A stretch of 36,813 nucleotides of DNA from Acidobacteriota bacterium (GTDB taxonomy: Bacteria > Acidobacteriota > Terriglobia > Acidiferrales > UBA7541): positions 1 through 36,813 of the forward strand of contig QHYJ01000082.1 in the NCBI GenBank assembly GCA_003223255.1, in the 5' to 3' direction. Every line of letters starts with the position of its first letter. The stretch's first letter is position 1. The translations under genes were made by a program, and so were the position numbers. Below the pieces are notes generated by a model. The model was given only the letters and a program-made list of their open reading frames with translations. It was not told where the DNA came from and searched no databases. This document shows positions 3 through 36,600 of this stretch, piece by piece.

Positions 3-695
3 CGCAAGCAGATTCGCGGTATCGAGCAGCACCTATCGAAAAAGCGGCGGGCCTTAGAAGAACTCCAAGCCAAGCTGCGGCGCTCGCAGAAGCCGGGCGC
101 TAAAGGCAAAGGCTATAGTCGCGAAAGCCTCACCAAGCGAGTGCGCCAGATATGTTCGGGCCAGCACATCTCTAAAATTCTGCGCGTTTCGGTGATCGAA
201 AAACGCCGCAAACTGAAGCTCTTCTACCGGACCGATGCCTCCGCCTTCGCCCAAATCAAGGAACATCAATTGGGGAAACGCATCTTGTTCACCGACCAGA
301 AGAGCTGGAGCAATGAGCAGATTATCCTCGCCTATCGCAGTCAATCGCAGGTCGAGAGTGCGTTTGCGGATATGAAAGATCCTCACTTCCTGAGTTGGGA
401 ACCCATGTTCCACTGGACCGATTCCAAGATCCGGGTCCATGCCTTCTACTGTGTGTTGGCATTAATTTTGGGAAGTCTGCTCCAGCGCCGGGCGGCGCAG
501 AACGGTTTATCCCTAAGCCTGCAGGCGCTATTCAAGGCTCTCAACGGAATCCAAGAAGTGACCAATCTCTTTCCGCCCGCGGGCAAGCCCGGCTCGCCAG
601 GGCGGCCCCACGTGAAGACGACCCTCACGGAAATGGATCCCACGCAGCAGGCGCTTTTTCGCCTCTTCGCCCTCGATCGCTATCGGCAGACCTGA
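3..695 (+). CDS. Transposase, IS4/IS1634 type, C-terminal part only
   Basis: The reading frame is open to the left edge of the window, so the N-terminal part and left end of the element lie outside. The visible 230 residues begin with a basic helical stretch (RKQIRGIEQHLSKKRR). They then carry the C-terminal motif of DDE transposases of the IS4 superfamily, YRSQSQVESAFADMK, which holds the catalytic glutamate followed six residues later by lysine (E-x6-K). A hydrophobic stretch and a short tail follow, as is usual for IS1634-type enzymes. The protein would cut and rejoin the ends of its insertion sequence. The stop is a TGA at 693-695. I could not identify the right terminal inverted repeat downstream, so the element boundary is open. 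Whether the gene is intact depends on sequence outside the window. Confidence 0.8.
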   Translation, partial: RKQIRGIEQHLSKKRRALEELQAKLRRSQKPGAKGKGYSRESLTKRVRQICSGQHISKILRVSVIEKRRKLKLFYRTDASAFAQIKEHQLGKRILFTDQKSWSNEQIILAYRSQSQVESAFADMKDPHFLSWEPMFHWTDSKIRVHAFYCVLALILGSLLQRRAAQNGLSLSLQALFKALNGIQEVTNLFPPAGKPGSPGRPHVKTTLTEMDPTQQALFRLFALDRYRQT

Positions 696-1007: not shown

Positions 1008-2939
1008 CTATTGAATTTCCCCGTTGGTCTTGAACTTTACCGTGACGGTCAGGTGCATGGCGGCTGGTCGGCCATCCAGCCGTGCGGGTTCGTACTTCCA
1101 TCGCCGCACTGCATCTTTGGCCGCTTCCCGCAATAGGATGGGACCGGAAATCACTTTGAGGTCCCGCACATTGCCGGACTCGTCGACGAACGCATCGAGA
1201 GTGACATCGCCGGCGGTACGGTTTGCTCGGGCGATCGGGGGATAGATCGGGAGCGTCGCCTTGATCAAGCGTGCCGGTTGAACATCACCGCCCGTAGGTG
1301 GTATCCGCTCCGCCTCGGGCATCGCGGGATTTGGCAGAGTTTCCTTAAGGGGCATGTCCGCCGAAGCCGGCACTTCTCCCGGGAGTGCGGGCGCGACGGG
1401 CGCCGCTGAACTGTCCGAGGAAGCAGTTGTCTCGCTGGCGTGGGGCGGGGCTAGACTGAAATCGTGAGACGATTCCTGCTTTGCCGTTGCGGTGGCCTCT
1501 TCCTGACGTGGTAATTGAGGGGATTGCAGCTGCTTAAAGCTTTCACGAGCTGCCACCTCCGAGGAATTTCCCACAGCGCGGATGGCCGTACTTGTATGGG
1601 CCTCGTTCGAGAACCATAGGACGGACCGCCGGTTATTGGTGTCCAACACTTCCACGAGAAATGGGCTCGTGTTTTCGGCAGCCGTGGGTTCTTGCGCTCG
1701 GCCGGAATCCACTTGCCCCGCTGACGGACGAGACGCATCTCCTGCAACTTCCGCTCCCCCGTTGAACCTGGAAATAAATCCAATAATTCCTGCCACCGCT
1801 CCCACCGTGGCCAGGAAGGAAAGCACCGCGGCGTAACCGACGCGCGCCCTTCGCTGCCTCAGCTCCAACGTCTGTCCGCGCCTTTGCCGCTCTTCGTGCC
1901 CCATCAGGCCCGCTTCAAAACCCTCGAAACCCAGGGACGCCCGCTTCTGCGGCGCGGGGGCGGATCTGGACTGCCAGAACCCTTCGCTTTCGGAAGGCAG
2001 CGGTTCCCGCTCAGGTTCAAAGCCAGATTCGGGCCCTGATTCGAGCCCTGATTCGAGCCCTGATTCGAGCCCTGATTCGGGCCCTGATTCGAGCCTAGGT
2101 TCAGGTTCGGAATCCACAGGCAATTCCGGCTCGGACGCCGGTGGTTCGGGGCTGTGCATGAATACAGACTTATGCCTTCGAGGCAACTCGGGAGCTGGTT
2201 CTTCAGGCGCGTGCCTGTGAGAGGAAAACGACGGGTCGGGTTCCCAGACTACTTCGCTATCGGAAACCTGATTTTCGAGATGGCTTTCAGAAATTTCCGC
2301 AAACTCCCCGAAAGGTGAATGGGCGGAGTGGGCTGCGGGTTCGGGCGGGGAGAAGGTTGTGGGTGCGGGTGCTGCCGTCTCCGGCGCGGGGAAGGGTGCG
2401 GGTGCTTCCTGAGCCGCTTCGTTGGTCCAATCGCCGTGCGCTTCTTGATTCTTCGGCACGACCTCCTGGGAAGGTACCGAGGACATCCAATAGCGAATCT
2501 GGTCCCGGCTCCTCGGAGACAGTTCCAGGAATTGCACCCCTGCAGTTCTCTCAAACTCAAGGGCCCAAACCACGCGGCCGGTCGCCTGGATCGCATCACC
2601 GAAGATCTTCCCATCGTGCGGGAGAGGCATGCAGCCCATGGCCTCGAAGCTGAAGTGCACGGACTCACCGACGGCAGGAGCATGGGCGAACTGAAAGCAC
2701 ATGCCTTTTTCGCTTAGGTCGATGAGCTTGCCCCAATTGTCCCCAAAGAACACCAGCACAGCCCATTGAAGTGGCTCGCGGTTGCAGGAGCGCCGCTCGT
2801 TGGTTCTCCCGTCATGTTTGTGAGCTGCCGCTGAAGTGAACATAAGACTCCCGTCGTGATCGTTCGGCCTTCCAGGGCTGGTTTCTGGAGACTCGTATTG
2901 CTTGGTAATCTGCACGTTCCGGCTAAGGTCTCGCATCAC
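1008..2939 (-). CDS. PilZ domain - membrane segment - TonB C-terminal domain fusion protein
   Basis: A 643-residue protein with three parts. Residues about 48-153 look like a PilZ domain with both c-di-GMP contact motifs visible: RxxxR (R50-S-C-N-R54) and DxSxxG (D74-L-S-E-K-G79). A long proline/glutamate-rich linker follows (about 155-365), including a degenerate ESG[L/P] repeat. A single hydrophobic segment at about 367-391, preceded by arginines (RQRRAR), should put the PilZ part in the cytoplasm and the rest in the periplasm. Residues about 555-638 match the TonB C-terminal domain, with the YPPIAR motif, a G-x-V-x-L-x-A-x-V-D-x-x-G strand and the RRWKYEPA motif. TonB normally carries proton-motive energy to outer-membrane receptors; here it may instead relay a c-di-GMP state. 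The GTG start overlaps the upstream gene's stop (GTGA); an in-frame ATG follows at once (2936), and GGGAG lies upstream. ExbB/ExbD are not in the window. The domain calls are by eye. Confidence 0.85.
   Translation of the reverse strand: MMRDLSRNVQITKQYESPETSPGRPNDHDGSLMFTSAAAHKHDGRTNERRSCNREPLQWAVLVFFGDNWGKLIDLSEKGMCFQFAHAPAVGESVHFSFEAMGCMPLPHDGKIFGDAIQATGRVVWALEFERTAGVQFLELSPRSRDQIRYWMSSVPSQEVVPKNQEAHGDWTNEAAQEAPAPFPAPETAAPAPTTFSPPEPAAHSAHSPFGEFAEISESHLENQVSDSEVVWEPDPSFSSHRHAPEEPAPELPRRHKSVFMHSPEPPASEPELPVDSEPEPRLESGPESGLESGLESGLESGPESGFEPEREPLPSESEGFWQSRSAPAPQKRASLGFEGFEAGLMGHEERQRRGQTLELRQRRARVGYAAVLSFLATVGAVAGIIGFISRFNGGAEVAGDASRPSAGQVDSGRAQEPTAAENTSPFLVEVLDTNNRRSVLWFSNEAHTSTAIRAVGNSSEVAARESFKQLQSPQLPRQEEATATAKQESSHDFSLAPPHASETTASSDSSAAPVAPALPGEVPASADMPLKETLPNPAMPEAERIPPTGGDVQPARLIKATLPIYPPIARANRTAGDVTLDAFVDESGNVRDLKVISGPILLREAAKDAVRRWKYEPARLDGRPAAMHLTVTVKFKTNGEIQ
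2026..2097. repeat. Six 12-bp tandem repeats inside the PilZ-TonB gene
   Basis: The unit GATTCGAGCCCT, with a GATTCGGGCCCT variant, occurs six times head to tail on the plus strand. In the gene (minus strand) it encodes a four-residue repeat, E-S-G-L or E-S-G-P, in the linker between the PilZ domain and the membrane segment. Units of 12 bp keep the frame, so slippage would lengthen or shorten the linker without breaking the protein. Confidence 0.9.
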
Positions 2940-3499
2940 CCTCCCGCTCCCGTTCTGTTCTGCTCTGCTAACTCCGGCCAGACCGCCGGGAGGTCGATCT
3001 GGTTGTGGGTGGCCTCATCGAAAAGGACAAATCCCCGCACACGCGCGAGCCTTTGCTTCACGAATTCTTTGAGCTTTTCCTCATAGCGCGAATCGTCCCG
3101 CACTGGCCAGGCTAGCGTCCCGGGGATTTCAATGGCCAAGCGCGCGTGCTGCCTCGCCGGCAGAAAAACCGGGTAACTCAAGCGGATAGCTTCCTCCTGG
3201 CTGAGGCTTCCGTCCGACTTAAGCCGGCTCATGATCACCACGCCCGAAGTCTCCGCCAGACGGTAATCGGTCTCGGTGAAGTTATTCACATCGTAAGAAA
3301 GGATCAGCGAGGCGTGGGTCTTGTCCACTTCGCGAAGTTGCGTGGCCACATACGCTGCCCTGATCCCTTCGCGACTCCAACCTTTCGCAGACTCTTTCGC
3401 TGGATGTTTTAAGATGGGCGTGGCGAGCGTGAAAATAACGAGCACAAATAGTCCGGCTCCCGCCGAGCCCACAATGGTCAGCCACTCTTTCCTGGACAC
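2936..3499 (-). CDS. Membrane-anchored protein of unknown function
   Basis: I do not recognise the family. The 187-residue product has one N-terminal hydrophobic segment (residues about 8-29, after MSRKEW), then a hydrophilic domain of about 155 residues. This is the pattern of a single-pass inner-membrane protein or an uncleaved signal anchor with a periplasmic domain. Visible stretches include YDVNNFTETDYRL, a beta-rich middle with SYPVFLPARQHARLAIEIP, and a basic helix near the end (EKLKEFVKQRLARVRG). The gene starts with GTG behind a GGGGGA run. Its TGA stop overlaps the start of the PilZ-TonB gene, so the two are almost certainly co-transcribed and translationally coupled. That suggests work on the same envelope process, which is inference from position only. 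Confidence 0.7.
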   Translation of the reverse strand: MSRKEWLTIVGSAGAGLFVLVIFTLATPILKHPAKESAKGWSREGIRAAYVATQLREVDKTHASLILSYDVNNFTETDYRLAETSGVVIMSRLKSDGSLSQEEAIRLSYPVFLPARQHARLAIEIPGTLAWPVRDDSRYEEKLKEFVKQRLARVRGFVLFDEATHNQIDLPAVWPELAEQNRTGAGG

Positions 3500-4239: not shown

Positions 4240-6165
4240 CTATAGAATAACACGCTCGTCGCCCATTCGGCGTGTTATCCGCTCGCGATCCAGGTATTCG
4301 AGCAGTGGGATGGCGTACTTCCGGGTAATCCCGGTTAGCTCCTTAAAAGTCGGCACGGAAATGCGTTCGCCTTTGGATTTTTTGTAGCCAGCGAGACGCT
4401 CTTTCAACTGCGCCAGCGCCTGGCGATGAAAAACCAGTTCCGGTGAAACGCGCACGAGATTTTTTTCGCGCAACAAGATTTGCAGCAGCCGCTCCCCGCG
4501 CTTGGCTTCCATCGCCAGTTGGGCCAGCACTTCTTTCACCGACGGAACTGCCAGGCCGGCCGTTGCGAAGGCCGCTTCGATTTGATCTTTGGCCTTGGCT
4601 TCCTGTGGCTGCAGCGTGATTTCCGATCCGGCTTTCTTGACCAATTCGCCGGGCGCATCCAGCTTCTTTTGCGCGATCAGTTCGTCCAGCGCGGCGCGGA
4701 AAGTTTCGGCGCGCACGCGTTTCCCCAGGCTGGCGCGCAGATCTTCGCGCTGCATTCCCGGCAGCAGCGGATTCTCTTTCTGAAATTTCTCGACCTTTTC
4801 CAATATCTTTTTGCGAACTTCTTCGAAAACTCTTCCGGAAACCAGCACGAGCGGTTCCACGGAAACGGATTTGACGCCCCCTGCCTCGGAAAGTTTCTTG
4901 GCCGTGGCCCGGATTTCACGGTCCGTCCACGCAGTGCGCGCGACAATTTCTTCGTAGCTAAGACCAAGAATCGCGCGCTCGGTCATGGCCGCCAGAATTT
5001 CTTCGCCCTTCCCTCTTTCGAGCGTTTCTAGAAACGCCCCTCTTCCCGCGTCGCGCAGCATCGGCCGCCGCGCCAAAGGATCGAGAACCGTTCCCCCGCC
5101 AATCGTCACCACCGGCGAAAACTGCCGGACGATGAAATGGTCCCCAGGCAGCACGAGAACTTCGTCTTGCAATTTCAGATTCGCGAAAGCGTTGCCGCCC
5201 GGTTGCAATTCTTTTTGCCCGTAAAAAAAAACTTCCGCGATGGTTTCCGCCGTTCCCGCGTGAAAGTGCACGCTTGTTCCCTGCTTCAATTTTCTTGCCG
5301 ACCTCAACATCTCCAACCGGATATCGATGCGGCGCGTCTTCCGGAATTTTCCCGGTGTTGCTAGGACCATGCCGCGTCTGAGCGCGGTGTGCTCGATACC
5401 CGCGAGATTCACCGCCGTGCGCTGGCCTGGCCTGGCGCGCTCCACTGCCTTGCCACCCGACTGCACCCCTCTCACGCGCAGGCGCTCTCCTCCCGGAAAC
5501 AACTCCACTTCATCGCCGGCGACGACGCTTCCGGAAATAAGCGTGCCCGTCACCACGGAGCCGAATCCCTTCATCGCAAATGCGCGGTCAATCGGCAAAC
5601 GAAAATAGCGCGACGCATCTCGTGCGGTGGTGCTTGCCGCAGCTTCTCGCAGCGCTTTCTTCAAATCGTCGAGCCCTGCGCGCGTTTTCGCACTCACGGG
5701 AACGATTCGCGCATGCTCTAGAAACGATCCGCGCAAGTACTCTTCGGCCTCCAGCCGCACCAGTTCGAGTGTGTCGCTGTCGACCAGGTCGCTCTTCGTC
5801 AACGCCACCACGCCGCGCTGTACTCCCAGCAATCGGCAAATATCGAAGTGCTCGCGCGTCTGCGGCTTGATGGATTCATCCGCGGCAATCACCAGTAGCA
5901 GCACGTCGATTCCCGCGGCGCCCGCGAGCATGTTGCTGACAAAGCGCTCGTGCCCCGGCACATCCACAAAGCCGAAGCGCACGCCATTCTCCTCGAGGAA
6001 GGCAAAGCCCAAATCGATGGTAATGCCGCGGCGTTTTTCTTCTTCGAGGCGGTCGGGGTGCGTGCCGGTCAGGGCTTCGACTAACGCGGATTTCCCGTGG
6101 TCGATGTGCCCCGCCGTGCCGATGATGACGCTTTTGGCTGCAATGGTTTGCGTCGCGGTAGACAT
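4240..6165 (-). CDS. selB: Selenocysteine-specific translation elongation factor SelB
   Basis: A 641-residue protein, full SelB length. The N-terminal GTPase has G1 GHIDHGKS (19-26), G3 DVPGHE (68-73), G4 TKSD (123-126) and G5 SAK (158-160). EF-Tu-like beta-barrel domains follow, then a C-terminal half of winged-helix repeats ending GITRKYAIPLLEYLDRERITRRMGD, typical of the part that binds the SECIS hairpin in selenoprotein mRNA. SelB delivers Sec-tRNA to in-frame UGA codons. I saw no selA, selD, tRNA-Sec or obvious selenoprotein in the window; these are often unlinked. The start ATG lacks a strong Shine-Dalgarno sequence. tatA follows on the same strand and pyrF is upstream by 69 bp, so a longer transcript is possible. 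Confidence 0.95.
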   Translation of the reverse strand: MSTATQTIAAKSVIIGTAGHIDHGKSALVEALTGTHPDRLEEEKRRGITIDLGFAFLEENGVRFGFVDVPGHERFVSNMLAGAAGIDVLLLVIAADESIKPQTREHFDICRLLGVQRGVVALTKSDLVDSDTLELVRLEAEEYLRGSFLEHARIVPVSAKTRAGLDDLKKALREAAASTTARDASRYFRLPIDRAFAMKGFGSVVTGTLISGSVVAGDEVELFPGGERLRVRGVQSGGKAVERARPGQRTAVNLAGIEHTALRRGMVLATPGKFRKTRRIDIRLEMLRSARKLKQGTSVHFHAGTAETIAEVFFYGQKELQPGGNAFANLKLQDEVLVLPGDHFIVRQFSPVVTIGGGTVLDPLARRPMLRDAGRGAFLETLERGKGEEILAAMTERAILGLSYEEIVARTAWTDREIRATAKKLSEAGGVKSVSVEPLVLVSGRVFEEVRKKILEKVEKFQKENPLLPGMQREDLRASLGKRVRAETFRAALDELIAQKKLDAPGELVKKAGSEITLQPQEAKAKDQIEAAFATAGLAVPSVKEVLAQLAMEAKRGERLLQILLREKNLVRVSPELVFHRQALAQLKERLAGYKKSKGERISVPTFKELTGITRKYAIPLLEYLDRERITRRMGDERVIL

Positions 6166-24918: not shown

Positions 24919-25174
24919 TCGGGGTTGCCACTAGACAAGCACTACATTCCGGTGGGACAGATGCCAGGGATCATCCTGCTTCTTTTGATTACTTACTGGA
25001 AGCAACCAGAACACCAAGCACTTGCCGTTGGCCATGTGCTTGATAAACTGCGCGATAGTCAGGATGCGAACACGATCGCATCACCAAGTTCCCCTGCGGG
25101 CCCGATCCTCTCGCCAGCAGGAATTGCCCTTCCCCACGAACGCCTTCCCCGTTCTGAAAGAACCACGTCGTTTG

Positions 25175-26401
25175 ATGGCTCCTCGACCGGCCCTTGAGCA
25201 TCTGCTTGCGGCTCTTCTCCAGTCCTCTGAGGAAGCGGTGGTTACCCTCTCGCCTAAGGGGACGATAGAGACCTGGAGTGCTGGAGCAGAACGCCTTTAT
25301 GGGTACGGCGCCGAGGAGATCATCGGCGAATCCGTGGGCCGGGTTCTTCCGGTCTATGAATCGCCGCGCTTGGAATCTCTGCTCTCTCAACGTGGGGACG
25401 AAGGCAGGCTTGTGGAGCTAGGGGAGCGTGTGCACAAGAACGGCTCAAGGATCCTTCTGGCGATACGCCGAAGCGTGATTCGCGGCGACCATGGCGAAGC
25501 GGAAGGAATTCTCGAGATGGCACATGCGCTCGACCCCCATGAAGCATTGTGGTCGTTGGAAGAAGCGCCGCTTCGCCTATTAATGGAGCAGGTGCCAGGG
25601 CTCCTGTGGATCACCGACCAGAATCTGAAAATCTCTTCGCATTGGGGTTCCGGGTTGTCGGCAACCAAGATTCGCCAAGGTTCTCTTGTGGGACAAGACG
25701 TTCGTGAATTCCTGGGAGCGGCCGATCCACACGCGACACCCATTGCTGAGCATCATTCCGCTCTTCGCGGAGTGGTCTCGCATTTTGAGTATGACTGGAA
25801 GAGCAGTGTGCTGGAGATCCGCGTGGGGCCGCTGCGCTCGTCTTCCGGTCAAATTATGGGATGCTTGGGCGTTGCTCTGGACGTCACGGACCGTAAAAAA
25901 ACAGAAGAGCAGGCCCGCTATCAAGCGCGTCATGATGGGTTGACGGGGCTGGCGAATTATCGCGAATTCATGGACCGGCTTGAGCGAGAAGTGCGCCGCG
26001 CGGAACGCAGCCACCGTTCCTTTGCACTCTTGCTTTTGGATCTCGACGAATTGAAGCGCATTAACGATCTGCAAGGGCACCTGGCGGGCAACCGCGCGCT
26101 TCGCCGGCTCGCGGCAGTCATGAATGAACATTGCCGTTCGACGGACCTGGCGGCGCGCTACGGCGGCGACGAATTTGCCGTGATCCTCATCGACTCCGAC
26201 CGCAGAATGGCGGAAAACGTCGCGCAGCGCATCGAACGGCGGTTGCATTCCGAACAAAACAGGCCGCAGCTCAGTGTCAGTATCGGCATTGGCGTTTACC
26301 CGGACGACGGCAGAACGCCGGCCGAAATGATCGAAGCCGCCGATCAGCGCCTTTATCGTCGCAAGAAAGACCCGACGCAACGAGGTGTTTCCGCTCGCTG
26401 A
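25175..26401 (+). CDS. Diguanylate cyclase with two PAS sensor domains
   Basis: A 408-residue soluble signalling protein. The first PAS domain spans about 10-135 (SSEEAVVTLSPKGTIETWSAGAERLYGYGAEE). The second spans about 145-275 (LLMEQVPGLLWITDQNLKIS, ending CLGVALDVTDRKKTEEQ). A GGDEF domain at about 285-400 follows, with DGLTGLANYREF, LLLDLDELKRIND, an intact GGDEF motif (330-334), and an inhibitory RxxD site (321-324) five residues ahead of it. It should make c-di-GMP and be product-inhibited. No membrane segment is seen. The ATG at 25175 is chosen because it precedes the first PAS helix directly; the frame is open to 25022. A possible receptor for its product is the PilZ protein at the other end of the window, which is speculation. 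Confidence 0.92.
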   Translation: MAPRPALEHLLAALLQSSEEAVVTLSPKGTIETWSAGAERLYGYGAEEIIGESVGRVLPVYESPRLESLLSQRGDEGRLVELGERVHKNGSRILLAIRRSVIRGDHGEAEGILEMAHALDPHEALWSLEEAPLRLLMEQVPGLLWITDQNLKISSHWGSGLSATKIRQGSLVGQDVREFLGAADPHATPIAEHHSALRGVVSHFEYDWKSSVLEIRVGPLRSSSGQIMGCLGVALDVTDRKKTEEQARYQARHDGLTGLANYREFMDRLEREVRRAERSHRSFALLLLDLDELKRINDLQGHLAGNRALRRLAAVMNEHCRSTDLAARYGGDEFAVILIDSDRRMAENVAQRIERRLHSEQNRPQLSVSIGIGVYPDDGRTPAEMIEAADQRLYRRKKDPTQRGVSAR

Positions 26402-30975: not shown

Positions 30976-33123
30976 CTATGCCAGATCTTCGGCGCGGATC
31001 GGCAGCCGGCGGATGGGCTTGCCGGTAACGGCAAGAATGGCATTGCACAGGGCAGGCGCAATCGGCGGAGTGCCAGGCTCGCCGCAACCACCGGGCGCTT
31101 CGTTGCTCGGCACGATGTGCACTTCGACCTTGGGCATCTCGTTCATGCGCAGCAAGTCGTAGTCATTGAAATTGCCTTGCTCGACGCGCCCTTGGGCAAT
31201 GGTGATCTGGCCTTTGAGGGCCGCCGTGAGACCGTAGACGATACCCCCTTCCATTTGCGCGGCGATGATGTCTGGATTGACATGGCGGCCGCAGTCCACG
31301 GCGCAGACCACGCGGCGGACTTTGACTTCGCCGGACTGGCGATCGACGCTGACCTCCGCCACCTCGGCAACAAAACTGCCGAAGGATTCAACGACGGCGA
31401 TCCCGCGTGTTAGTCCTGCCGGCAGCGGCTTGCCCCAGCCTGCCTTTTCTGCCGCCAATTCCAGCACGCCGCGATGCCGCGGCGCTTTTTCGAGCAGCTT
31501 GCGGCGAAATGCAAACGAATCCTTGCCGCCGGCTCGCGCCAGTTCTTCGACGAAACACTCTGTGATGTAGCCGTTCTGTGAATTCCCGACCGAACGCCAG
31601 AAGCCCACAGGCACACCGGCCTCGGTCAAGACATAATCGCAGAAGAAATTCGGAATGGCGTACTTGCTCTCCACGATTCCTTCGACGGAGCTGTTGTCCA
31701 GCCCATTCTTCACCGAGCCCGGAAAAAAGCGCGACATGATGGACGGCCCAACGATGCGGCACTTCCACGCCACGGGCCAGCCGTCCGCGTCAAGGCCGCC
31801 GGTCAGTTTCGTATAAGTCGCGGGCCGGTAAAAATCGTGCTGCATATCGTCTTCGCGGGACCACGTCACCTGAGCCGGCGCGCTGATGGCCTTCGAAATC
31901 TCCACAGCTTCCCTAGCGAAATCTTGTTCGGCGCGGCGGCCAAATCCGCCGCCGAGATAGGTGGTATGAATACGCACCTGTTCGGGTTTCAGTCCGGTGA
32001 GTTTCGCCCCGGTATTCTGATTGAAGGTCTGGAATTGCGTCGGGGCGTAGATGTCGCAGCCATCCGCGCGGACGTCGGCAGCGCAATTCATCGGCTCCAT
32101 GGTCGCGTGGGCCAGAAAGGGAACTTCGTAGACGGCTTCGACTTTTTTCGCAGCACCCGCGAGGGCCGAGTCCACATCTCCGTCTTTGCGCGCGATCGCC
32201 CCCGCTTTTTCCGCGTTTTCCAGATAGAGCTTGCGAATGGCTTCGCTCGAATTCGTTGCATTCGAACCTTCGTCCCATTCGATTTGCAGCGCGCGGCGGC
32301 CTTCCATCGCCGACCAAGTATTGTCGGCGACTACAGCCACGCCGGAAGAAATCTGCAGCACTTGCTTTACGCCCCGAATCGCTTTCGCTTTGGTCGGGTC
32401 GAAGCTTTTAACCTTGCCGCCAAACACCGGGCAGCGTGCCACCACAGCGTGCTGCATTTTGGAGAGCCGCACATCGATCCCGAACCCGGCTTTTCCATTG
32501 ATTTTCGCCCGCGTATCAAGGCGCTTCACCGGCTTGCCGATGTAGTTGTAATTCTTCGGGTCTTTCAACGTGGGATTCGCCGGAACCGGAAGCTTGGCCG
32601 CGGCTTCCGCCAGCGTGCCGTATCGCAAACGCTTGCTGGTTGCTTTGTGAACCACGGCGCCATTTTCCGCGTGACACGCCGATGGTTCGACGTTCCACTG
32701 CTTGGCGGCAGCAGCAATGAGCATTTCGCGCGCTGCCGCGCCCGCCTTCGTAAGCGGTCCCCACGAAGACCGCACGCTGGTGCTGCCGCCCGTGCCTTGC
32801 GCGCCAAAAAGCGGGTTGAAATACTGAGGGGCCGCCGGAGCAAACTCGAACTTCACCTTTGTCCAATCGAGTTCCAGCTCTTCGGCCAGCAGCATGGCCA
32901 GCGAAGTCACCACGCCCTGGCCCATTTCCGATTTGTCGATCACAAGTGTGACGGAGTCATCCGGGGCGATGCGCACCCAGGCGTTTAGCGCGGCGGGTTC
33001 CGCGGGCGGAGGGGCGAGCGCCTCGAATTTCCCGGGCAGATAGCATCCGATGATGAGCGCGCCGCCGCCCGCGGCACTCTTTTTCAAAAAGTCGCGGCGC
33101 GGCAGCGTTGTAGCAGGGGACAT
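30976..33123 (-). CDS. Xanthine dehydrogenase-family molybdopterin-binding subunit (IorB-like), copy 1
   Basis: A 715-residue large subunit of a molybdenum hydroxylase. It begins with a twin-arginine signal (PRRDFLKKSAAGGGALIIGCYLPG). Then come WVRIAPDDSVTLVIDKSEMGQGV, a GTGGSTSVRSSW loop, FLAHATMEPMNCAADV, TTYLGGGFGRRAEQDF, WSREDDMQHDFYRPATYTK and CAVDCGRHVNPD. Near the end GGCGEPGTPPIAPA carries the catalytic glutamate of this family. Isoquinoline oxidoreductase and related aldehyde or alcohol oxidases use this two-module single-chain form and need a separate 2Fe-2S subunit. The ATG at 33123 has GGAGG five bases before it. The substrate cannot be named. It follows a paralogue by 79 bp and is probably co-transcribed with it. 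Confidence 0.92.
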   Translation of the reverse strand: MSPATTLPRRDFLKKSAAGGGALIIGCYLPGKFEALAPPPAEPAALNAWVRIAPDDSVTLVIDKSEMGQGVVTSLAMLLAEELELDWTKVKFEFAPAAPQYFNPLFGAQGTGGSTSVRSSWGPLTKAGAAAREMLIAAAAKQWNVEPSACHAENGAVVHKATSKRLRYGTLAEAAAKLPVPANPTLKDPKNYNYIGKPVKRLDTRAKINGKAGFGIDVRLSKMQHAVVARCPVFGGKVKSFDPTKAKAIRGVKQVLQISSGVAVVADNTWSAMEGRRALQIEWDEGSNATNSSEAIRKLYLENAEKAGAIARKDGDVDSALAGAAKKVEAVYEVPFLAHATMEPMNCAADVRADGCDIYAPTQFQTFNQNTGAKLTGLKPEQVRIHTTYLGGGFGRRAEQDFAREAVEISKAISAPAQVTWSREDDMQHDFYRPATYTKLTGGLDADGWPVAWKCRIVGPSIMSRFFPGSVKNGLDNSSVEGIVESKYAIPNFFCDYVLTEAGVPVGFWRSVGNSQNGYITECFVEELARAGGKDSFAFRRKLLEKAPRHRGVLELAAEKAGWGKPLPAGLTRGIAVVESFGSFVAEVAEVSVDRQSGEVKVRRVVCAVDCGRHVNPDIIAAQMEGGIVYGLTAALKGQITIAQGRVEQGNFNDYDLLRMNEMPKVEVHIVPSNEAPGGCGEPGTPPIAPALCNAILAVTGKPIRRLPIRAEDLA

Positions 33124-33202
33124 AGAAGCCTCCGTGTCGAAGCAGGTGGCATTGTCCGACAGGCCGGCCTTCGGAATCAAACGAGGCGCGGGTTCAGCTC
33201 AA

Positions 33203-35425
33203 TCAAGCCAGATCTTCGTTGCGAATCGGCAGGCGACGCAGGCGCTTGCCCGTGGCCTTGAAAATAGCATTGCAAATCGCCGGCGCAATCACCGGAACGG
33301 TTGGCTCGCCAATCCCCGTCGGCGCTTCCGTGCTGGGCACGATGTAAACCTCAATGGGCGGAGCCTCGTTCATGCGGATCATCGCGTAGTCATTGAAATT
33401 GGCCTGCATGACGCGGCCGCGATCCACAGTGATGGCATCCTTTACGGTTGCGGTGAGCGCATAAATGGCAGCGCTCTCTACTTGGGCGCGCACGCCGTTG
33501 GGATTAACGGCGCGGCCGCAATCCACCGCGCAAACAATGCGGTTCACCTTGAACACTGAGTTCGCAGCGGAAACTTCTGCGACCGCAGCAACATAACTAT
33601 AAAAAGAGTAAAAACCGGCGATGCCTCGGCCCTGCCCTTTCCGAAGCGGCTTGTCCCAGCCGGCTTTTTCAGCGGCCAGCTGCAACACGCCTTTCAGCCG
33701 AGCGGTGTCCAGCGGATGATAGTTCTCTCGACCTTCTCCAAATTGGGGAATCTTCCGCGAATCGCCGATGAGCTTCAGCCGAAACTCCAGTGCCTCCTGT
33801 CCTGCAGCATGCGCCAACTCGTCCACAAAGCTTTCCATGACGAAGCCGCTGCTGGAGTGTTCGACCGAACGCCACCACGCGCGAGGTGCGCTGGAATGAG
33901 CGAGGGTGTACTCAACGCGGACGTTGGGCGTGGCGTAGGGAATAGTGGCTCCCGTGCCGAATTCGCCCATCCCCGGATCATCCGCGCCCTTCTGGCTCCA
34001 CTTTGCCGCGATGGAAGTGGAAGTCTGGAAATGCTTCCAAGCGGCGAGCTTGCCTTGGCTATCGAGGGCACCCTGCAACTTGTGGTACGACGCCGGGCGA
34101 TAGAAATCGTGTTGCATATCATCTTCGCGGGTCCACAGGACCATGACCGGTTTGCCGGAAATCTTGGCAACTTGCGCCGCTTCCATCACAAAATCGGCCT
34201 GATAACGCCGGCCAAAGCCACCGCCCATCAGCGTGGTATGCACCGTGACTTTTTCCGGTGGAAGCTTGGCGGCTTCCGCAATCACCGCTTGCGCCCACTG
34301 CGGCCCCTGCGAGGGCACCCAAGCTTCCGCGCTATCCGGCCGGATGTGCACGGTGCAATTCATCGGCTCCATGCAGACATGCGCGGCGAAAGGCAATTCG
34401 TAGACGGCTTCCAATTTCCTTGCGGAAGCCGAAAGCGCGGCGTCGGCGTCGCCGTCGTTGCGAAGAATGTTTTTTCCCGGGGTGGAGGCCTTGTCCAGAA
34501 ATTGCTTGTTCAGTTCCTCGGAGGATTCGTTGGCGGCCGCGCCCTCCTCCCACTTCACTGCGAGGGCTTTGCGGCCTTGAATCGCGGCCCAGGAATTGTC
34601 GGCAAGAATCGCTACGCCGCCGGTGGTAGAAGCACCGCGGCCGCTGGTCTTGATCTCGAAAACATCGCGCACGCCCGGCACAGCTTTGGCCTTAGAGGCA
34701 TCAAAGGAGGCCACCTTGCCTTCGAACACCGGGCACCGTTCGATCACCGCATAGAGCATGCCGGGCACGCGCGAGTCGATGCCAAATTTGGCGGAGCCAT
34801 TGGACTTTGCGGCAGTATCGAGCCGATGCATGTCGCGGCCGATGATCGTGAAGTCGTCGGAATTCTTCAACGGAACTTTGTTCAGATTGGGAATCGGAAG
34901 ATTGGAGGCATCGACGACAAGTTCACCGAAGCGGAACGAACGCTCGGGATGACCATGAACAACGAAGCCATTTTTTGCCTTGCAAGTTTCTGTGCCGACT
35001 TCCCATCTTTTTGCAGCAGCTGCGATCAGCATTTCCCGCGCGGCGGCGCCGGCTTGGCGCAAAGGCAGCCAGGAACCGGCAATGCTTCCGCTCCCGCCGG
35101 TTCCGAGATCATAAATCTTGGGATTCGTGGGCGCCTGCTCCACGTGCACTTTCTTCCAATCGACGCACAGCTCTTCCGCCAGAACCATCGGCAGAGAGGT
35201 GTAAACGCCCTGACCCATCTCCGATTTTCCAAGGACCAGCGTGACGCGGTCGTCGGGCGTGATGCGCACCCAGGCGTCGAAGGGATTGGGAGTCTTCTCT
35301 TCCTGATCCTTGGCCTGATCGCCGAACGTACGGGGAGTCAGGCGGAATCCGATCATAAGAGCAGCACCGCCTGCGGCGCTGGTCTTCAGGAAATCACGCC
35401 GGTTCACAACCGAAGCATTAGACAT
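33203..35425 (-). CDS. Xanthine dehydrogenase-family molybdopterin-binding subunit (IorB-like), copy 2
   Basis: A 740-residue paralogue of the downstream gene, with the same architecture: twin-arginine signal (NRRDFLKTSAAGGAALMIGFRL, residues 8-29), VTLVLGKSEMGQGVYTSLPMV, GTGGSGSIAGSW, MEPMNCTVHI, TLMGGGFGRRYQADF, WTREDDMQHDFYRPASYHK, CAVDCGRAVNPNGV and the catalytic-glutamate loop TGIGEPTVPVIAPA. Both copies end in nearly the same residues (LRRLPIRNEDLA here, IRRLPIRAEDLA in copy 1). Differences in the substrate-facing loops suggest distinct substrates. It lies 42 bp after the 2Fe-2S subunit gene. A GAGGTG ribosome site precedes the ATG. Confidence 0.93.
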   Translation of the reverse strand: MSNASVVNRRDFLKTSAAGGAALMIGFRLTPRTFGDQAKDQEEKTPNPFDAWVRITPDDRVTLVLGKSEMGQGVYTSLPMVLAEELCVDWKKVHVEQAPTNPKIYDLGTGGSGSIAGSWLPLRQAGAAAREMLIAAAAKRWEVGTETCKAKNGFVVHGHPERSFRFGELVVDASNLPIPNLNKVPLKNSDDFTIIGRDMHRLDTAAKSNGSAKFGIDSRVPGMLYAVIERCPVFEGKVASFDASKAKAVPGVRDVFEIKTSGRGASTTGGVAILADNSWAAIQGRKALAVKWEEGAAANESSEELNKQFLDKASTPGKNILRNDGDADAALSASARKLEAVYELPFAAHVCMEPMNCTVHIRPDSAEAWVPSQGPQWAQAVIAEAAKLPPEKVTVHTTLMGGGFGRRYQADFVMEAAQVAKISGKPVMVLWTREDDMQHDFYRPASYHKLQGALDSQGKLAAWKHFQTSTSIAAKWSQKGADDPGMGEFGTGATIPYATPNVRVEYTLAHSSAPRAWWRSVEHSSSGFVMESFVDELAHAAGQEALEFRLKLIGDSRKIPQFGEGRENYHPLDTARLKGVLQLAAEKAGWDKPLRKGQGRGIAGFYSFYSYVAAVAEVSAANSVFKVNRIVCAVDCGRAVNPNGVRAQVESAAIYALTATVKDAITVDRGRVMQANFNDYAMIRMNEAPPIEVYIVPSTEAPTGIGEPTVPVIAPAICNAIFKATGKRLRRLPIRNEDLA

Positions 35426-35467
35426 GGGACACCTCGGGACGGATTGCGAGAGAGCGGTCGAGAAAAA

Positions 35468-35944
35468 TTACCCCGCGGAATGCGCTTTACCCGCCATGGA
35501 CGCGGCGCGGTGAATGGCTTTGCGGATGCGCTGATACGTGCCACAACGGCAGATGTTGCCGCTCATGGCATCGTCGATGTCGGCGTCGGTGGGGTTGGGC
35601 TTCTTTGCAAGCAAGGCTACCGCGGACATGATTTGCCCCGATTGGCAGTAGCCACACTGCGGAACATCTTCCTCCATCCAGGCTTTCTGCACCGGATGGC
35701 TGCCATCCGCGGAAAGCCCTTCAATGGTGGTGACTTTCTTTCCCGCCACGCTGGAGATCGGCGTGATGCAGGAACGCGTGGCTTCGCCATTGATGTGCAC
35801 TGTGCAGGCGCCGCAAAGCGCCATGCCGCAGCCAAACTTCGTGCCGGTCATGTTTAGCGTGTCGCGAAGCACCCAGAGCAGAGGCATGTCCGGACTGACT
35901 TCTACAGACTGGGCTGTACCGTTTAGCGTGAAACTGATAGCCAT
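35468..35944 (-). CDS. [2Fe-2S] ferredoxin subunit of molybdenum hydroxylase (IorA-like)
   Basis: A 158-residue small subunit with two 2Fe-2S clusters. The plant-ferredoxin-type cluster uses C39, C44, C47 ([16 protein letters not shown]) and C59; the second uses C97, C100 ([10 protein letters not shown]), C132 and C134 ([11 protein letters not shown]). It passes electrons from the molybdenum centre of the large subunit to an external acceptor. It has no signal peptide; in such enzymes it is exported bound to the Tat-tagged large subunit. The start ATG has AGGAGG six bases upstream; the longer open frame is a shadow. It leads the cluster of two large subunits. No FAD subunit is present, as in IorAB-type enzymes. 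Confidence 0.95.
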
Positions 35945-36027
35945 GCGGAACCTCCTGGAGCAGGTGGATATCCTACACCAACTCAAGCCTCGAGCGGAAA
36001 TGAGCGACATGCGGGTAACTGGCGGGC

Positions 36028-36600
36028 TCATTTGCCAGTGGCCAATCGCTCCTTCGCCCAATTCAAAATGATGGCGACCACTTCGCCGTGAAACTTCTTC
36101 TCTACGTTGAATCCATGGGTCATGCCCTCGACTTCCACGTAGTGAGCCTTCCCGGGATGCACGCGATTCACGATTTCTTTGCCGTCTGCGCGGCTCATGA
36201 TCGTGTCCTTGGAGCCGCGGATGACCAGCACAGGCGCATCCACGTCTTGCCAAACTTGTCCTAAATTCAACTCTTGCAGTTGTTGATAAAACGCAGCGGG
36301 GCGGCCGTACTGGCCGTCGGGCGCGTGGTACCAAAGATTCTTCCCCTGCGGATGTTGGGTGAGGATGTGTCCGGGCGTTTGTCCCTGAATCAAGTAGAGA
36401 TCGTAAAACTGCGCGAACGCTTTTATGGCGTCATTCACCTCAGCGGCAGACTTGCCCTCGGTCGTCAGGCGAACGCGCTCGTTTTCGAGCATGTGTTCGT
36501 ACCAGGTGCGTGCCCAGGAGCCGGCGGCAATGACAACGTTACACAGCCAATCATGACCACGACCTGGCAAGCACGAGCAACCTCCGCCCGAGGCAGACAC
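36028..36600 (-). pseudogene. Alpha/beta hydrolase, N-terminal half missing
   Basis: The frame reads the C-terminal half of an alpha/beta hydrolase of the peptidase-S9/esterase type: AAGSWARTWYEHMLENERVR, a helical lid, [20 protein letters not shown], then [20 protein letters not shown] with the acid residue and [10 protein letters not shown] with the catalytic histidine. The first about 20 residues of the open frame (MSASGGGCSCLPGRGHDWL) look unrelated, and the nucleophile-elbow half is absent. The break is near 36545. The piece is therefore probably non-functional, although a start at 36600 is technically possible. It lies 83 bp upstream of the 2Fe-2S subunit gene on the same strand. Confidence 0.65.

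Follow-up and report, generated by a model that had tools for sequence, protein, structure and literature searches.

A PilZ-TonB fusion and its one-to-one partner gene in a soil Acidobacteriota lineage: a candidate link from cyclic di-GMP to the cell envelope

What would a bacterium gain from a single protein with a putative receptor for the second messenger cyclic diguanosine monophosphate (c-di-GMP) on one side of the inner membrane and a TonB domain on the other? The question is raised by a gene located at 1008..2843, minus strand, of contig QHYJ01000082.1 (here C361), a stretch of 36,813 nucleotides that we refer to as the window and that belongs to the draft genome (428 contigs) of a soil Acidobacteriota bacterium. 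The best-known role of TonB domains is at the distal end of a motor powered by ions, and c-di-GMP has known effects on cytoplasmic enzymes, motors and transcription; if one conserved protein held both, the messenger would have a direct path, mechanical or positional, to the outer membrane. The answer that we favour tentatively, as just short of probable, is that the fusion would act as an inner-membrane tether or scaffold under c-di-GMP control, with its TonB domain gripping an outer-membrane or periplasmic protein, and not as a transporter driven by ExbB and ExbD (ExbBD).

The longest open reading frame (ORF) of the locus, 1008..2939 on the minus strand, has 643 codons counted from a GTG. An earlier note, made from the letters of this DNA alone, had described this frame as one chain of a PilZ domain, a repeat-containing acidic linker, a transmembrane helix and a TonB domain. 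The frame is indeed coding and the architecture is borne out by Pfam and by orthologs, whereas the length of the product is likely 611 residues and not 643. Translation probably begins at the ATG at 2843 (residue 33), since the signature M(F/Y)(T/S)S...ERRSC opens all five orthologs compared throughout this work (window, G025, G018, G012 and G019; their N-termini read MFTS, MYTS or MFSS...ERRSC) and a GGGAG sits immediately before that ATG. This start lowers the residue numbers of the earlier note by 32; unless stated, we number from the GTG.

Searched against profiles, the two terminal domains each exceed the Pfam cut-off. The PilZ domain (2487..2798, minus strand), on the cytoplasmic side, is matched by PF07238 at residues 48-151 with 41 bits (cut-off 22.5, E 2.6e-10), and the TonB C-terminal domain (1029..1250, minus strand), on the periplasmic side, by PF03544 at residues 564-637 with 56 bits against 24.6 (E 5.8e-15). 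The latter is also matched by TIGR01352 (42.4 bits, cut-off 27.1), and a phmmer search of the Protein Data Bank (PDB) returned TonB chains exclusively, the best being TonB2, 2k9k (E 1.8e-7). Between the two domains, a disordered cytoplasmic linker rich in acidic residues and proline (1926..2480, minus strand) contains a 12-bp unit repeated in 5.8 tandem copies at 2026-2095; the repeat is not conserved among the five orthologs and looks like linker filling. It is followed by a single transmembrane helix, GYAAVLSFLATVGAVAGIIGFISRF (1767..1838, minus strand), at about residues 368-391 (hydropathy 2.31), or 368-392 in a low-confidence AlphaFold model. The helix is internal, at about residue 336 of the 611, such that some 335 cytoplasmic residues, including PilZ, precede it. 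Its position, given before as about 367-391, and the periplasmic placement of the TonB side agree with hydropathy and with the distribution of charges, since in 5/5 orthologs 5-7 lysines and arginines flank the helix on the PilZ side and 2-3 on the other, an excess that fits a protein with its N-terminus in the cytoplasm. Beyond the helix lies the 21-residue periplasmic segment PFLVEVLDTNNRRSVLWF (1602..1664, minus strand), for which a beta-hairpin is predicted with strands at 427-432 and 438-443 in an AlphaFold model that is poor overall.

Constraint is distributed unevenly along this chain. Pairwise identity among the five orthologs reaches 71% in PilZ, 75% in the 21-residue periplasmic segment and 75% in the TonB domain, and falls to 33% in the cytoplasmic linker, 50% in the helix and 38% in the second linker. 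The cytoplasmic linker carries many indels and differs in length by about 100 residues. PilZ, the periplasmic hairpin and the TonB domain are thus the constrained parts, and the linkers are little constrained. We give practically no credence to the idea that an assembly or annotation error, or a chimera, fused two genes: the genome is a draft of 428 contigs, but the same domain order in a single open frame recurs in several independent genomes, one contig coming from another collection, which rules the artefact out.

That the domain order recurs elsewhere was confirmed with a profile of this PilZ subtype, which found 15 genes, spread over 10 of the 36 genomes that represent the genus, with the TonB domain in every frame that could be read whole; no further genome was found in a 396-genome sample of the phylum at E 1e-10 (11 candidates scored per genome). 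The fusions of the genus are of two types: A, long at about 600-700 aa, to which that of the window belongs, and B, short at about 500 aa. The periplasmic hairpin segment recurs in type B and in the fusions of another genus, g231.

The strongest functional clue to the fusion, absent from the earlier note, is the linkage to a partner gene situated directly upstream (2936..3499, minus strand). The stop codon of this gene shares bases with the GTG that opens the long ORF. The gene encodes 187 aa, comprising a membrane helix at the N-terminus and a conserved domain, presumably periplasmic, without a match in Pfam, NCBIfam or PDB. Pairing in the genus is one-to-one (15 of 15 fusions, 15 strong partner copies), and the pair sits in differing contexts: in several genomes the type A pair is at a SelB locus, several type B pairs adjoin a sortilin/BNR gene, and others lie elsewhere. 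It was also found in g231 at two loci, L202 and L196, the fusion of L196 being split by an apparent frameshift. The partner probably acts together with the periplasmic half of the fusion, and such strict pairing makes the question testable with two genes.

Apart from the genes paired with type A and B fusions, the partner domain was matched in the genus at L181, at L174 (a solitary gene) and at L175 (a marginal fragment). The protein of L181 (1498-3435, minus strand) joins a GAF domain, a helix, Sel1 repeats and a C-terminal partner domain; the partner domain is thus a module that moves between proteins. Such an arrangement, together with PilZ-helix-Sel1 proteins in the same family, resembles that of signalling receptors and lends something to an outside-in scheme, in which the TonB domain, the hairpin and the partner would sense the state of the envelope or outer membrane and PilZ would serve as output or integrator. 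We consider this scheme distinctly improbable: the cytoplasmic side carries no enzymatic or DNA-binding output, and long disordered linkers would be poor relays of a signal.

Could the fusion be energised as a classical TonB protein? In Escherichia coli TonB, Ser16 and His20 contact ExbB and the histidine is essential (PMC12215075). The fusion helix contains no histidine, and the Ser-x3-His motif for docking to ExbB is absent from it. Nor does this motif occur at the cytoplasmic helix end in any of the 22 listed TonB proteins with a PilZ or PilZ-like domain; the sole pattern match among them, SFLQH in L092, is at the periplasmic helix end. In the same genome, the TonB protein encoded beside ExbBD on contig C276 has SLLFH in its helix, and SVLGH or SLTAH is present in several further TonB proteins of this genome. 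Contigs C141 and C276 carry all of its ExbB and ExbD matches, two and four respectively; each ExbB locus has its own TonB gene, and the three PilZ-TonB fusions of the genome lie on other contigs. No MotA/ExbB or ExbD match was found on C361, which extends about 1 kb downstream of the fusion gene before it ends. Classical energisation by ExbBD appears unlikely because the helix is without Ser-x3-His and both ExbB loci lie elsewhere beside other TonB genes, and it is because of the helix that we favour a regulated tether or scaffold over an import motor energised by ExbBD. The proposal that a second-messenger receptor stands here in place of ExbBD gains indirect support from the same two observations.

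A related possibility is a motor-driven force transducer, which ExbBD or a related motor would energise despite the helix, with c-di-GMP as its clutch. Its model would be the Agl-Glt gliding machine of Myxococcus xanthus, where GltG (PglI, MXAN_4867), a protein of 640 aa with a cytoplasmic FHA domain, a single helix and a periplasmic TonB C-terminus, interacts with the AglR motor of AglRQS (PMC3169522); moreover, c-di-GMP-binding proteins act elsewhere as brakes or clutches of flagellar motors (PMC8203827). Since the docking motif is missing from the cytoplasmic helix end of every homolog listed and none of the ExbB or ExbD matches shares a contig with any of the three fusions, we regard this transducer as quite unlikely.

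The cytoplasmic end points to c-di-GMP as the signal. Both motifs are intact, as they had been read before (R50-SCN-R54, and D74-L-S-E-K-G79, that is, DLSEKG), and PilZ is a likely c-di-GMP receptor, judging from these residues. In ten aligned homologs of types A and B the RxxxR arginines are unchanged in all, and D/NxSxxG is kept in eight; the five type A orthologs all retain DLSE(K/R)G. With 16 GGDEF matches, one of them inside the window, and 49 PilZ matches in the genome, c-di-GMP signalling is expected and the messenger is very probably made in this bacterium. The GGDEF domain of the window (140 bits) belongs to a PAS-GGDEF protein encoded at 25022-26401 (plus strand), some 22 kb away from the fusion, and likely to be a diguanylate cyclase.

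The earlier note had proposed that c-di-GMP could be coupled to the envelope, and this is kept as the best reading of the architecture, with the topology in agreement. For transport across the outer membrane, an output named in that note, the genome offers no support: the neighbours examined include no gene for a TonB-dependent receptor, a pilus or secretion. In the tether or scaffold that we prefer, PilZ would bind c-di-GMP in the cytoplasm and the clustering or the cytoplasmic contacts of the fusion would change, which in turn would decide whether or where a tether forms. The helix and the linkers would bring the TonB domain to its target in the outer membrane or periplasm, to be gripped by strand addition, the way in which other TonB domains bind, and the partner would assist in the periplasm together with the periplasmic half. 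The fusion and its partner would in this manner point to a route by which contacts with the outer membrane come under the control of a signal in the cytoplasm. A bolder version, possible although we hold it with visibly less confidence, has a two-gene module that would form an ExbBD-independent, c-di-GMP-gated link between the inner and outer membranes, the messenger controlling tethering directly and post-translationally, as one of several parallel designs in the family that place PilZ across the membrane from another domain.

Several observations weigh against the preferred tether. DLNExG replaces the second motif in 2 of the 10 aligned homologs, and one fusion of a second genus has DIGEGG. 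Residue 55, directly after the second arginine, is a glutamate, so that the first hydrophobic position of the published motif RxxxRhxh/DhSxxG (as quoted in PMC8322970) is lacking while the rest of it is present, and no aligned homolog has a clear hydrophobic residue at that place; ligand binding may therefore not be universal. No gene for an outer-membrane target is linked to the fusion among the neighbours examined, a helix of non-canonical type could still use a divergent motor, and AlphaFold, run on a two-row alignment, reached a mean predicted local distance difference test score of 37 for the fusion (42 for the partner). The DLNExG of those two homologs also speaks for a PilZ domain that would serve docking or localisation without binding c-di-GMP, the fusion and its partner then being a constitutive scaffold, and so do relatives across the family that keep the architecture with a degenerate PilZ-like domain devoid of the motifs. 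We hold this to be unlikely, given that RxxxR is invariant in the ten homologs and DLSE(K/R)G persists in five type A orthologs although their linkers are at 33% identity.

Fusions of this kind extend beyond the genus, in a wider set that the earlier note did not mention. A family-wide search at a looser cut-off found further PilZ-helix-TonB proteins in other genera (L195, L197, L201 and L202) and versions with two PilZ domains (L092, L201, L203 and L205). In three proteins, L206:2305-3987, L208:1842-3269 and L210:3671-4924 (all minus strand), one of them in the genome of the window, PilZ and the helix are followed by a Sel1-like repeat, weak and under the Pfam cut-off. Commoner in the family than the motif-bearing fusions, and present in most genomes of the genus, are proteins in which a PilZ-like N-terminal domain without c-di-GMP motifs or a Pfam name precedes the helix and the TonB domain (for example L111:6394-8694 and L094:729-3443, both plus strand). 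A domain tree places their TonB domain beside those of types A and B, with support of about 0.8, and it is suggestive that their N-terminal domain could be a degenerate PilZ: it matches PilZ weakly in profile-profile comparison (probability 9-13%), with L016 as an intermediate protein that the two profiles both match. The recurrence of PilZ-TonB, PilZ-PilZ-TonB and PilZ-Sel1 suggests a general strategy in this poorly studied soil lineage. The genome of the window encodes three PilZ-TonB fusions, and in L097:5445-7343 (plus strand), in the same genome, it is a Ser/Thr protein kinase domain that precedes a helix and a TonB domain, a further case of a cytoplasmic signalling domain fused to TonB.

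Among known systems, GltG is the closest analogue, with a cytoplasmic signalling domain, one helix, a TonB C-terminus and a similar length. The fusion differs from it in having PilZ and no FHA match in Pfam, and in that its contig carries no motor gene of the ExbB/AglR type, an unrelated partner being linked instead. GltJ, considered as a precedent, could be confirmed no further than 'TonBC motifs', and GltG is cited in its stead. With the TonB of the Ton system (TonB-ExbB-ExbD) the fusion shares the C-terminal domain and the order of helix, linker and TonB domain, but its helix is internal and without Ser-x3-His, its gene is not beside ExbBD, and its cytoplasmic part of about 335 residues contains PilZ. 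Like the PilZ effectors YcgR and MotL, it has RxxxR and DxSxxG, a presumed c-di-GMP switch, but its PilZ is joined via a membrane helix to a periplasmic TonB domain. In the open-access literature we found no description of a PilZ-TonB fusion; most subscription papers were outside the scope of this search and a prior description is possible. The parts are of known kinds, and their combination appears new relative to the literature searched.

The neighbours beyond the pair were considered as functional clues and discarded. A MacB/FtsX permease gene lies downstream of the fusion gene in type A orthologs, and sortilin/BNR and PIG-L genes surround type B; they indicated no function, and none was gained from the SelB and pyrimidine genes upstream of the copy in the window. 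The selenocysteine-specific elongation factor SelB is encoded at 4240-6165 (minus strand) beside the pyrimidine genes, and the window yielded no tRNA gene. At the contig edge, a frame at 3-692 (plus strand) has by eye the look of a partial transposase, with no Pfam match at E 1e-5. Toward the other end, 30976-36334 (minus strand) encodes in a row two molybdopterin-binding dehydrogenase subunits, one with a twin-arginine translocation (Tat) signal, and a 2Fe-2S subunit.
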